This document shows, one piece after another, positions 31,460-44,996 of a stretch of DNA of 64,000 nt. Origin of the DNA: Agrococcus sp. SL85 (GTDB lineage: Bacteria > Actinomycetota > Actinomycetes > Actinomycetales > Microbacteriaceae); the NCBI RefSeq assembly GCF_026625845.1, contig NZ_CP113066.1:1984001-2048000 (forward strand), read 5' to 3'. The position numbers and the translations under genes were made by a program. Under the pieces are notes generated by a model. That model was given only the letters and a program-made list of their open reading frames with translations, did not search any database and was not told the origin of the DNA. Numbering within the stretch: the stretch's first letter is position 1; every line of letters starts with the position of its first letter.

Positions 31460-31487
31460 AGAGGGGCGGCCTGCGGGCCGCCCCTCT
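31460..31487. terminator. Hairpin terminator after the YmgE-type gene
   Basis: A perfect 12-bp stem (31460-31471 with 31476-31487, loop tgcg) begins 12 bases after the stop. It is the first of three related hairpins in the gap to the convergent oxidoreductase gene. Confidence 0.8.
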
Positions 31488-31556
31488 TCGCGTGCGCGGC
31501 CTGCGGGCCGCGCCTCCTCGCGTGCGCGGCGCGCGGGCCGCGCCCCCTCGCGTGCG
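31467..31556. repeat. Three tandem 30-bp GC-rich units
   Basis: Three consecutive 30-base units (31467-31496, 31497-31526, 31527-31556) share cggc-tgcgggccg and end in cgcgtgcg. Units 1 and 2 differ at two positions, unit 3 at a few more. The first two can each fold into a hairpin (gcgcggcc-tgcg-ggccgcgc in the second), so the array looks like a duplicated terminator between two convergent genes. Confidence 0.75.
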
Positions 31557-31561
31557 CGGAC

Positions 31562-41854: not shown

Positions 41855-42508
41855 TCAGCCGAGGGCGTCGAGGATCTCGTCGGGGCTCGCGTCGGCGAGC
41901 GTGCCGAGGGTGCGCTCGGCGGGCACGGGGGAGGCGGGGAGCTGCGTCGTGAGGAACCAGAGGCGCGCGCCGGCGGCGACGGCCGAGCGGGCGCCCGAGC
42001 CGGAGTCCTCGAACGCGATCGAGCGCGCGGCGTCGGCGCCGAGCCGCGCGATCGCCGTCGCGTAGGGCTGCGGGTCGGGCTTCGAGCGCTCGACGTCGTC
42101 GGAGGAGACGGCGAAGCGCAGCGCGCCCTCGGGCGCCGCAGCGAGGAGGCCGCGCGCGTTCACGGCGGCGGCGTTCGTCACGAGCGCCGCAGGCACGCCG
42201 CGCTCGGCGATCCGCTCGAGCAGTGCGAGGCTGCCGGGCAGCCACGGCACGTCGGCGCGCACCGCCTCCGCGACCTCGGCCGCGATGCGCTCGACGATCG
42301 CCGCCGGCGCGAGCCCTGCGCCGCGCTCGTGCATGACGGCGGCCCACTCGAGCATCGGGCGCCCCGTCGTCCAGTGGAGGTCCTCGGTCGTCCACGCGAA
42401 GCCGCGCTCGCGGGCGAAGGCCCGCATGCGCTCGTGCCACAGGGGCTCCGAGTCGACGAGCGTGCCGTCCATGTCGAGCAGGATCGCGGGCTGCAGGGGA
42501 GCGGGCAT
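41855..42508 (-). CDS. HAD family phosphatase (beta-phosphoglucomutase-like)
   Basis: A 217-residue HAD hydrolase with motif I in LLDMDGTLVDSEPLWHERM, motif II in ALVTNAA, motif III in RSKPDPQPYATAI and motif IV in FEDSGSGARSAVAAGA. The cap is the helical type of phosphoglucomutase-like and sugar-phosphatase members. The substrate is unknown. A weak CAGGCT box lies 6 bases upstream of the ATG. It is divergent from the NRAMP-like gene. Confidence 0.9.
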   Translation of the reverse strand: MPAPLQPAILLDMDGTLVDSEPLWHERMRAFARERGFAWTTEDLHWTTGRPMLEWAAVMHERGAGLAPAAIVERIAAEVAEAVRADVPWLPGSLALLERIAERGVPAALVTNAAAVNARGLLAAAPEGALRFAVSSDDVERSKPDPQPYATAIARLGADAARSIAFEDSGSGARSAVAAGARLWFLTTQLPASPVPAERTLGTLADASPDEILDALG

Positions 42509-42620
42509 GGGGACAGCCTGGCATGCCCCCTCCCAGCCGATGGATAGGTTGGAGGGGCGCCGCCGGCCCGCACCGGCCCGCGGCGGCACGCGACGCGCAC
42601 GACGACACGACGGAGTGGAC

Positions 42621-43898
42621 ATGGCACAGCAGAGCACGACGATGACGCCGCGGAAGTGGCGGATCATCGGCCCCGGCATCGTCGTCGCGGCCACCGGCGT
42701 GGGCGCGGGCGACCTCGTCGCCACCCTCGTCGCAGGCTCCAACTACAACTACCTGCTGCTGTGGGCCGTCGTCGTGGGCACCATCTTCAAGATCGTCCTC
42801 GTCGAGGGCGCCGGGCGCTACTCGCTCGCGACCGGCAGGACGATCTTCTCGGGCTGGCGCACGCTCGGCCGCTGGACCACCTGGTACTTCGGGCCCTACA
42901 TCCTCGTCTGGGGCTTCGTCTACGGCGCGACCGCGATGCTGTCCTCCGCCCTGCCGCTCGCCACGCTCATGCCGGCGATCCCGCTCGAGGCGTGGGCCAT
43001 CGGCACGGGCCTCATCGGCTTCGCGCTCGTGTGGTGGGGCCGCTACGCCCTCGTCGAGAAGGTCATGGCGCTCTTCGTCGGCATCATGTTCGTCACCGTC
43101 GTGGGCGCCGCGATCATGACGCTCCCGAACCTCGGCGACGTGCTCTCGGGCCTGCTCCCCGTGATCCCCGAGGGCGGCCTCATCACCACGCTCGCGCTCG
43201 CCGGCGGCGTCGGCGGCACGATCACGCTCGCCGCCTACGGCTACTGGCTGCGCGAGAAGGGCTGGAGCGACGCGAGCTGGATGCGCGTCATGCGCCTCGA
43301 CAACGCGGTCGCGTACGCGATCACGGGCGTCTTCGTCATCGCGATGCTCATCGTGGGCGCGGAGCTGCTCTACTCGGCGAACATCGCGATCTCCACGGGC
43401 GACCGCGGCCTCCTCGACCTCTCGGGCGTGCTCGCCGAGCGCTACGGCGCGGTCTTCGGCGCCGTCTTCCTCGTCGGCTTCTGGGCCTCGTCGTTCTCGT
43501 CGCTCATCGGCGTCTGGAACGGCGTGAGCCTCATGTTCGCGGACTTCGTCGGCACGACGCGCGGTCTCGAGCTCGACGACCGCCGCATGCACGCGGGCGG
43601 CACCTACTATCGCGCCTACGTGCTGTGGCTCACGTTCCCGCCCATGATCCTCGTCTTCCTCGGCCAGCCGATCGCCGTGATCCTCGCCTACGGCGTGCTC
43701 GGGGCGCTCTTCATGCCGTTCCTGGCGCTGACGCTCCTGGGGCTGCTCAACACCGACCGCACGCCGAAGGAATGGCGCAACGGGTGGCTGGCGAACGTGC
43801 TGCTCGGCATCTGCGCGCTCGTCTTCCTCGCGCTCGGCGCGAACGAGCTCGTCAAGGCGATCACGAACTTCGTCACGAACCTGCAGGGCGGCGCCTGA
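42621..43898 (+). CDS. NRAMP-like transporter lacking the DPGN metal motif
   Basis: A 425-residue membrane protein with about eleven hydrophobic segments of the SLC11/NRAMP family. Segment 1 reads GPGIVVAATGVGAGDLVATL, so the metal-binding D-P-G-N is replaced by G-A-G-D. Segment 6 reads GGVGGTITLAAYGYWLRE, lacking the usual M-P-H. It is therefore unlikely to be a standard Mn/Fe transporter; a relative with altered motifs carries Mg. The substrate is unknown. GTG 42615 is an alternative start. A TAGGTT box at about 42545 may be the promoter. A paralogue lies at 53494. Confidence 0.85.
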   Translation: MAQQSTTMTPRKWRIIGPGIVVAATGVGAGDLVATLVAGSNYNYLLLWAVVVGTIFKIVLVEGAGRYSLATGRTIFSGWRTLGRWTTWYFGPYILVWGFVYGATAMLSSALPLATLMPAIPLEAWAIGTGLIGFALVWWGRYALVEKVMALFVGIMFVTVVGAAIMTLPNLGDVLSGLLPVIPEGGLITTLALAGGVGGTITLAAYGYWLREKGWSDASWMRVMRLDNAVAYAITGVFVIAMLIVGAELLYSANIAISTGDRGLLDLSGVLAERYGAVFGAVFLVGFWASSFSSLIGVWNGVSLMFADFVGTTRGLELDDRRMHAGGTYYRAYVLWLTFPPMILVFLGQPIAVILAYGVLGALFMPFLALTLLGLLNTDRTPKEWRNGWLANVLLGICALVFLALGANELVKAITNFVTNLQGGA

Positions 43899-43930
43899 CC
43901 GCTCGGGGCGCCGCACCGCGCCGCGGCTCC

Positions 43931-43936
43931 TAAGAT
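43931..43936 (+). promoter_or_regulatory. -10 box of tRNA-Arg
   Basis: TAAGAT at 43931-43936 ends 9 bases before the tRNA-Arg 5' end, a suitable distance for a start of transcription just ahead of the tRNA. Confidence 0.55.
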
Positions 43937-43945
43937 CGAGGGCGC

Positions 43946-44021
43946 GCCTCCGTAGCTCAGTGGATAGAGCAACAGCCTTCTAATCTGTCGGTCGCTGGTT
44001 CGAATCCAGCCGGGGGCACCA
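43946..44021 (+). tRNA. tRNA-Arg (TCT)
   Basis: A 76-base cloverleaf with acceptor GCCTCCG paired to CGGGGGC, D-arm GCTC-GAGC, anticodon TCT after T33, T-arm GCTGG-TTCGAAT-CCAGC and encoded CCA. The anticodon stem has a C31-T39 mismatch beside the loop, where most relatives have A-T, which may lower its quality. The 3' part from base 27 is repeated four times directly downstream. Confidence 0.92.
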
Positions 44022-44215
44022 CAGCCTTCTCATCTGTCGGTCGCTGGTTCGAATCCAGCCGGGGGCACCACAGCCTTCTCATCTGTCGGTCGCTGGTTCG
44101 AATCCAGCCGGGGGCACCACAGCCTTCTCATCTGTCGGTCGCTGGTTCGAATCCAGCCGGGGGCACCACAGCCTTCTCATCTGTCGGTCGCTGGTTCGAA
44201 TCCAGCCGGCGCACC
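44021..44215 (+). repeat. Tandem array of four tRNA-Arg 3' parts (49-bp period)
   Basis: Four copies follow the tRNA head to tail at 44021-44069, 44070-44118, 44119-44167 and 44168-44215. Each covers tRNA nucleotides 27-75: anticodon arm, variable loop, T-arm and acceptor 3' strand with ACC. The first three are identical; the last differs in the acceptor part (CGGCGC for CGGGGGC) and is one base shorter. All four carry C instead of A at position 37. No copy has the D-arm or acceptor 5' strand, so none can fold as a tRNA. There is no spacer and no integrase gene nearby. Confidence 0.95.
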
Positions 44216-44257
44216 CCACGACAGGGGCGCCACAGCGCGGGCCCGTAGCCTGTCGTC

Positions 44258-44932
44258 GTGCTCGACCTCATGCTGCAGACCGCTCCCGACAGCTCCGAGC
44301 TCACCGGCGTCGCCGCGTGGGCGGTGGGGCTCATGGAGACGGTCGGCGCACCCGGTGCCGGCCTCGCGATCGCGGCCGAGAACCTCTTCCCGCCCATCCC
44401 CAGCGAGGTGATCCTGCCGCTCGCGGGCTTCACGGCCGCGGCGGGCGGGTTCACGCTCGTCGAGGCGATCCTCTGGACGACGATCGGCTCGGTCGTGGGA
44501 GCGTTCGCGCTCTACGCGCTGGGCCGCCTGCTCGGGCACGACCGCCTCGCGGCGATCGCCGGTCGGATGCCGCTCGTGCGCGCCTCCGACATCACGAAGA
44601 CGACGGCGTGGTTCGCGAGGCACGGTACGAAGGCGGTCTTCTTCGGCCGCTTCCTGCCGATCTTCCGCAGCCTCATCTCGATCCCCGCGGGCATCGAGCG
44701 CATGTCGATCCCGCTGTTCCTGCTGCTGACGCTCATCGGCTCCGCCATCTGGAACACGCTCTTCATCATGGTCGGCTACACGCTGGGCCAGAACTACCAC
44801 GTGATCGAGCCCTACATGGACACGCTGCAGTGGGTCATCATCGGCCTGGTGCTCGTCGCGATCGTCTGGTGGGTGGTCGCGCGGATCCGCCTGAACCGGC
44901 GCGAGGGCAAGCACCTGCTGCACGGCGAGTAG
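44258..44932 (+). CDS. DedA family membrane protein
   Basis: A 224-residue membrane protein of the DedA/SNARE-associated superfamily, proposed lipid scramblases. AENLFPPIPSEVILPLAGF near residue 40, the acidic and arginine-containing signature FFGRFLPIFRSLISIPAG and TLIGSAIWNTLFIMVGYTLG are conserved family elements. GTG 44258 follows a TAGCCT box (44246-44251) by 6 bases, so it probably has its own leaderless promoter right behind the tRNA-Arg array. Confidence 0.92.
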   Translation: MLDLMLQTAPDSSELTGVAAWAVGLMETVGAPGAGLAIAAENLFPPIPSEVILPLAGFTAAAGGFTLVEAILWTTIGSVVGAFALYALGRLLGHDRLAAIAGRMPLVRASDITKTTAWFARHGTKAVFFGRFLPIFRSLISIPAGIERMSIPLFLLLTLIGSAIWNTLFIMVGYTLGQNYHVIEPYMDTLQWVIIGLVLVAIVWWVVARIRLNRREGKHLLHGE

Positions 44933-44996
44933 CCGCCGACGCGCCGCGCGAGATCCGTCGGACGGATCGGGAATGGATCGGCTCGACATCGAGTTG

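Follow-up and report, generated by a model that had tools for sequence, protein, structure and literature searches.

The tRNA-Arg(UCU) gene of the window (the whole 64,000-nucleotide stretch of DNA analysed here) is followed by a tandem array of four copies of its own 3' part, all of which carry C instead of A at tRNA position 37 (C37 and A37 below). Comparison of sequences indicates that this array is a real inherited feature and part of a family-wide set, since similar arrays, with an identical base change, are present in related bacteria. The original observation is confirmed and enlarged by the present analysis: the most likely explanation is a recombining duplication that is old in the lineage and bears the mark of its founder, and there is a real chance that the array has a selected function.

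Table 1 The tRNA-Arg(UCU) gene and the array behind it (positions in the window)
Feature	Position	Strand	Basis
Intact tRNA-Arg(UCU) gene, A37 at 43982	43946..44021	+	ARAGORN; Rfam tRNA, 68.1 bits
Copy 1 of tRNA positions 28-76, C37 at 44031	44022..44070	+	Sequence, Tandem Repeats Finder
Copy 2 of tRNA positions 28-76, C37 at 44080	44071..44119	+	Sequence, Tandem Repeats Finder
Copy 3 of tRNA positions 28-76, C37 at 44129	44120..44168	+	Sequence, Tandem Repeats Finder
Copy 4, C37 at 44178, 3' end divergent	44169..~44209	+	Sequence, Tandem Repeats Finder
Possible hairpin GGGGGC-ACCACA-GCCTTC, tRNA 3' acceptor strand and copy 1; recurs between copies	44012..44029	+	Predicted, weak

Tandem Repeats Finder reports the array as a repeat from 43972 to 44209 with a period of 49 and 4.9 copies (99% matches, 0% indels), and its score of 469 is the highest among the 26 rows for the window. 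The whole of the exact 49-bp unit is tRNA-derived, and no spacer is present between the tRNA and the copies, or between the copies themselves. An earlier sequence-only reading had described an apparently intact tRNA-Arg(UCU) followed by an array with this exact period, four spacerless copies, three of them identical, and C for A at position 37 in all four, and each of these points was borne out by ARAGORN, Tandem Repeats Finder or the sequence itself. The identical copies are the first three, while copy 4 diverges near its 3' end, and the phase given earlier, 27-75, is equivalent to 28-76, because the A at the junction can be counted as either A27 or A76. The D-arm and the 5' acceptor strand are missing from every unit, again as first described. 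In the cloverleaf test the copies are accordingly incomplete and a single tRNA, tRNA-Arg(tct) at 43946-44021, is called at the locus (ARAGORN); the copies cannot be tRNAs. The hairpin listed in Table 1 has a predicted energy of −8.1 kcal/mol and a weak z of −2.6 against simple shuffles.

The genome of the window (G000), one contig of 2.7 Mb, contains this one array, which lies with its tRNA between an upstream gene with an Nramp domain and a downstream gene with a VTT domain. These three are co-oriented in G000; in G008, another genome of the genus, both neighbours oppose the tRNA and their sides are swapped, so that the tRNA and array are flipped relative to their neighbours (window 42285-44932 against L005). 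Two minus-strand open reading frames, 44128-44454 and 44177-44989, run into the array and encode DSNQRP- and AGFEPATDR-like peptides; they resemble artefacts of annotating antisense tRNA. The second highest repeat score in the window, 153, belongs to a 30-bp tandem repeat of 3.1 copies at 31466-31559.

To place the array among relatives we counted C37 copies at tRNA-Arg(UCU) with an exact C37 pattern, which gave 27 of 398 family genomes and 9 of 85 genera, and none of the 398 with the reversed pattern; genome counts of this kind are lower bounds, as exact patterns miss G008 and degenerate copies. A first-copy pattern with base 37 left open matched in 20 of 398 family genomes (7 of 85 genera), and all 20 carry C37, base 37 of G023 having been read separately. 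In an order-wide sample of 347 genomes, 29 from the same family and 318 from others, G000 was the sole match, and the C37 pattern was found in none of the 318 genomes of other families; the reversed pattern matched once in this sample (G516), and twice in a spacer-motif search of genus g65, where the pattern was one base short for the g65 copies. With base 37 open, extra exact copies were found in 8 of 28 genomes of genus g70 (14 copies, 14 with C37), other genomes of that genus having degenerate copies alone (G748, G749) or, in G336, no more than a remnant of the spacer. In the same type of search, three of five genomes of genus g78 gave 12 extra copies, of which 11 carry C37 and the twelfth, with A37, is one end of an inserted element.

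A DNA search of 40 genomes, that of the window among them, revealed two further arrays within its genus, all with C37: in G008 the copies number nine and measure 48-49 bp, and G023 has four copies with a 76-bp period. A pattern search of 24 genomes of this genus matched G000 and G023, plus two unrelated matches, and failed to detect G008 owing to additional changes in its copies. Degenerate or further copies are also present in G748, G749, G100, G217 and G371, and the copy spacing, where readable, ranges from 48 to 103 bp. The copy-number variation that the sequence-only reading had proposed to look for in related strains is indeed seen, with three copies in G335 and one each in G087 and G258, relatives that have the same spacer. 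In one genus (L001, L006, L025, L024) there are four types of tRNA-Arg(UCU), with 9-16 differences in 73 positions, most of them within 27-65; tRNA-His compared across four genomes, one of another genus, shows 1-8 differences in 72.

In most genera the unit consists of a spacer ending in approximately TCTCGCGGTG, followed by CTTCTCAT and then by tRNA positions 39-76. Extraction with base 37 open gave C37 in 85 of 85 copies from 35 genomes; most of these loci had originally been found with C37 patterns, and the genuinely open tests are the 20 family first copies, the 14 g70 copies and the 12 extra g78 copies. For the count per position, 16 of the 85 copies were dropped (10 without a readable adjacent tRNA, and 6 shifted by indels or N). 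Position 37 differs from the tRNA of the same genome in 69/69 copies, and the next most variable position in 7/69. The own tRNA is the nearest, or tied for nearest, for 68 of 69 copies, 48 are identical to it over 38-73, and the mean distance of the 69 copies is 0.59 to the own tRNA versus 3.70 to other types. From position 38 on, the copies follow the tRNA of their own genome, a pattern of concerted evolution.

We give about an even chance to the account in which part of the tRNA was duplicated long ago, the array has recombined since, and C37 goes back to the founding copy; the array may form a structured trailer. The 3' part of tRNA-Arg(UCU), in most genera with a short 3' flank, would have been duplicated in tandem inside this bacterial family, and later lost or shortened in many lineages. 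Unequal recombination or slippage would add and remove units, and copy positions 38-76 would be kept gene-like through exchange with the tRNA gene itself, as the observed pattern suggests. C37 would most simply be a mutation of the founding copy. In most genera it stands at the leftmost end of what copy and gene share, where exchange would seldom reach because homology stops five bases to the left of C37; a tRNA receiving C37 would probably work badly. If transcribed, the copies would form the 3' trailer of the tRNA, from which we would expect at most a mild effect in cis, on trailer structure, 3' processing or termination, and no product of their own.

Several observations bear on this account. 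At least eight arrays (G264, G741, G317, G308, G745, G748, G749 and G023) end in a partial spacer, which points to tandem duplication of the 3' part plus flank and not to leftovers of integrating elements, and the finding of the same spacer with different copy numbers fits a duplication followed by unequal exchange. The exact, degenerate and remnant states in g70, and the lack of a PF00589 match in the window, also appear to support duplication. It is weakened by several arrays without a terminal partial spacer, G000, G008, G335, G173, G414 and G750 among them. The founder origin of C37 is in turn weakened by its presence without exception in the searches with base 37 open, and by TCTCGCGGTG being more conserved than most other parts of the spacer and the upstream flank. 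Moreover, the simple left-edge explanation fails for three genomes whose copies match the own tRNA on both sides of C37, over 15 bases to the left in G023, and over 4-5 bases in G000 and G008, in which the leftward match goes a few bases past five. A founder effect, selection in RNA and selection at the DNA level all remain as candidate accounts of the constant C37.

The array is very improbable as an assembly or sequencing artefact. Some draft assemblies are broken, or contain N, inside such arrays (G308, G317, G210, G179, G364), but the genome of the window is a single contig, the C37 difference is consistent, and the presence of similar arrays in many separate genomes makes an artefact unlikely. 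In one of these drafts (G364, L306) the N stands at tRNA position 37, as if reads from the tRNA and a copy had been merged. A selected trailer element, in which the motif TCTCGCGGTG-CTTCTCAT, or a shortened form in the genus of the window, acts in the transcript, we consider rather unlikely; it might work through tandem hairpins that stop transcription or shape 3' processing of the pre-tRNA, or through repeated CUUCUCAUC binding sites. A trailer with tRNA-like half structures, or a decoy for tRNA enzymes, had been suggested by the sequence-only reading and is likewise a candidate role. The invariant C37 is in its favour, and so is the motif, the ten bases preceding the loop (TCTCGCGGTG) being conserved at 0.62-0.99 across 8 genera, above most other spacer and upstream flank. 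Predicted hairpins point the same way, as pairing of the tRNA 3' end with GGTGC before the loop beats shuffled spacers in g51, g95, part of g70 and G217, with P ≤ 0.05 at 9 of 42 junctions, and array-free g70 relatives often have other inverted repeats behind the tRNA, as judged by eye. However, the hairpin signal is weak overall (mean z −0.82 over 42 of the 47 distinct junctions, five from G000 and G008 being too short) and absent from g65, g18 and the single testable g1 junction. The most stabilising base at position 37 is G in 56 of 75 cases and C in 19, and in 33 of 75 the gain of C over A exceeds 0.05 kcal/mol; in addition, most of the family lacks arrays. Neither a classical terminator nor a promoter was found in 43700-44500, where a search for intrinsic terminators (a GC-rich hairpin plus a T run) gave none, while hairpins are predicted in part of the relatives. 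Hairpin energy was rejected as a general cause of C37, the clear gain being limited to tRNA acceptors reading GAGGGC. The idea that C37 abolishes an internal −10-like TAATCT is, by reasoning, not general either, because the tRNA of G023 reads TAATCC. Folding of the whole array gave a probability of ~0 for the tRNA acceptor stem in the few cases computed, and was set aside.

The sequence-only reading had also proposed that the copies are attachment sites left by an integrating element, with position 37 marking the element's version. Such remnants, or decoy sites made unusable by C37, which an integrase would bind without recombining, are to our judgement improbable, and element leftovers as the direct origin of the array are unlikely. 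tRNA-Arg is a known kind of phage target, as in the attP of Mbo4 and the putative attP annotated in epsilon34, and comparison of relatives revealed one element at the array locus. In G304, a ~17-kb prophage-like element (L314, 227-17700) is inserted in the A37 tRNA and shares the core TAATCTCTTGGTCGC; by its far end, two C37 copies remain untouched. In addition to an integrase (PF00589), a prohead protease domain is encoded in the element, which has its own intact tRNA-Arg(UCU) beside the integrase gene and splits the host tRNA-Arg(UCU), whose T-arm is not restored. This one case fits C37 copies being poor integration targets. Against an origin from elements, the locus of G304 is the only one with an insertion, no element DNA lies between the copies, and a search for PF00589 gave no match in the window; the six matches in its genome lie outside, the nearest ~46 kb from the array. 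Just before the window (contig 1 of G000, 1981157-1981632) there are two adjacent PF00589 pieces, possibly a broken integrase gene. A search for the C37 pattern gave no viral contig, none of 21 viral stretches with CGCGGTGCTTCTCATC continues into the T-arm, and no attachment-like extra A37 copy was seen in 28 g70 genomes with a pattern that misses some forms. A BLAST search with one copy returned 278 phage and 70 plasmid records; among the best 20 of each, those from phages are mostly tRNA-Arg genes or annotated attP, and base 37, read among all these records in Mbo4 alone, is not C there. These results speak mostly against the attachment-site proposal, and position 37 as the element's version is disfavoured by the use of an A37 site by the sole integrated element found. 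The importance given to position 37 nevertheless stands, in that C37 is present in every array copy seen.

Other identities were rejected. The exact 49-bp period without unique spacers does not correspond to a CRISPR array, and a shared antisense reading frame is discarded because several of the periods (49, 62, 64, 67, 70 and 76) are not divisible by 3. A reverse-transcribed tRNA is rejected as well, since the copies of relatives contain 3' flank sequence. The motif is not a mobile-element mark, as CGCGGTGCTTCTCAT occurs in 16 of 239 family genomes, in 10 arrays and 6 single stretches that are not tRNA-like; this search revealed a new array in G371, with two readable copies, both C37. In Rfam searches of 43800-44400 with E up to 1, the tRNA alone reaches its gathering score, weak antisense matches remaining below theirs.

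In many genera the tRNA gene and its broken copies seem to undergo concerted evolution, apart from a single base. This offers a natural experiment that bears on how much of a fragment can be overwritten through exchange with its gene, and on the question whether base 37 signals 'not a tRNA' to integrases or RNA enzymes. A bolder possibility, which we hold tentatively and regard as somewhat unlikely, is a selected family-wide element made from a tRNA gene, in which tandem half-tRNA trailer units with base 37 kept different from the tRNA would act in RNA (trailer, termination, binding) or in DNA (as non-recombining integrase decoys) without being taken for a tRNA. Were selection acting on it, the array would represent a cis element of a new kind, located at a tRNA also used by phages for integration. 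The arrays also matter for genome assembly and for annotation, as they break or blur draft genomes and antisense reading frames with tRNA-like peptides begin inside them.

No description of such arrays was found among the matches listed in the literature searched, many subscription journals being outside its scope, and in PMC9897764, which deals with fragments of tRNA genes, the passages matched are about a CRISPR spacer or belong to the references. The suggestion that no case had been described holds to this extent; as an arrangement, however, the array is common to many relatives. The nearest described kind is the tyrT repeat of enterobacteria, with a unit of ~178 bp that includes only ~19 bases of tRNA-Tyr. 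Like the array here, tyrT/rtT has tandem repeats directly behind a tRNA gene, including its 3' end; here, in contrast, the unit is 49 bp and all tRNA-derived, base 37 is changed, and the tRNA and the phylum are different. Copy number is variable there as well as here, one 175-bp VNTR at rtT RNA being reported between Salmonella strains in PMC2658671. The tRNA 3' fragments at attachment sites of islands and prophages are of similar extent, and tRNA-Arg is a target, but the array here is contiguous and multi-copy, with no element between the copies and no PF00589 match in the window. In unrelated bacteria, partial-tRNA repeats also occur behind tRNA-Ser in a Prevotellaceae MAG (L138, 49 bp), tRNA-Leu in a Holophagales MAG (L128, 91 bp), tRNA-Arg(CCT) in Curtobacterium aurantiacum (L077, 47 bp) and tRNA-Asn (L127). 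T-arm-pair scans gave at least 118 and at least 120 stretches; the first three cases, single examples from such a scan, repeat 3' tRNA parts as here, but with other tRNAs and without the shared C37.
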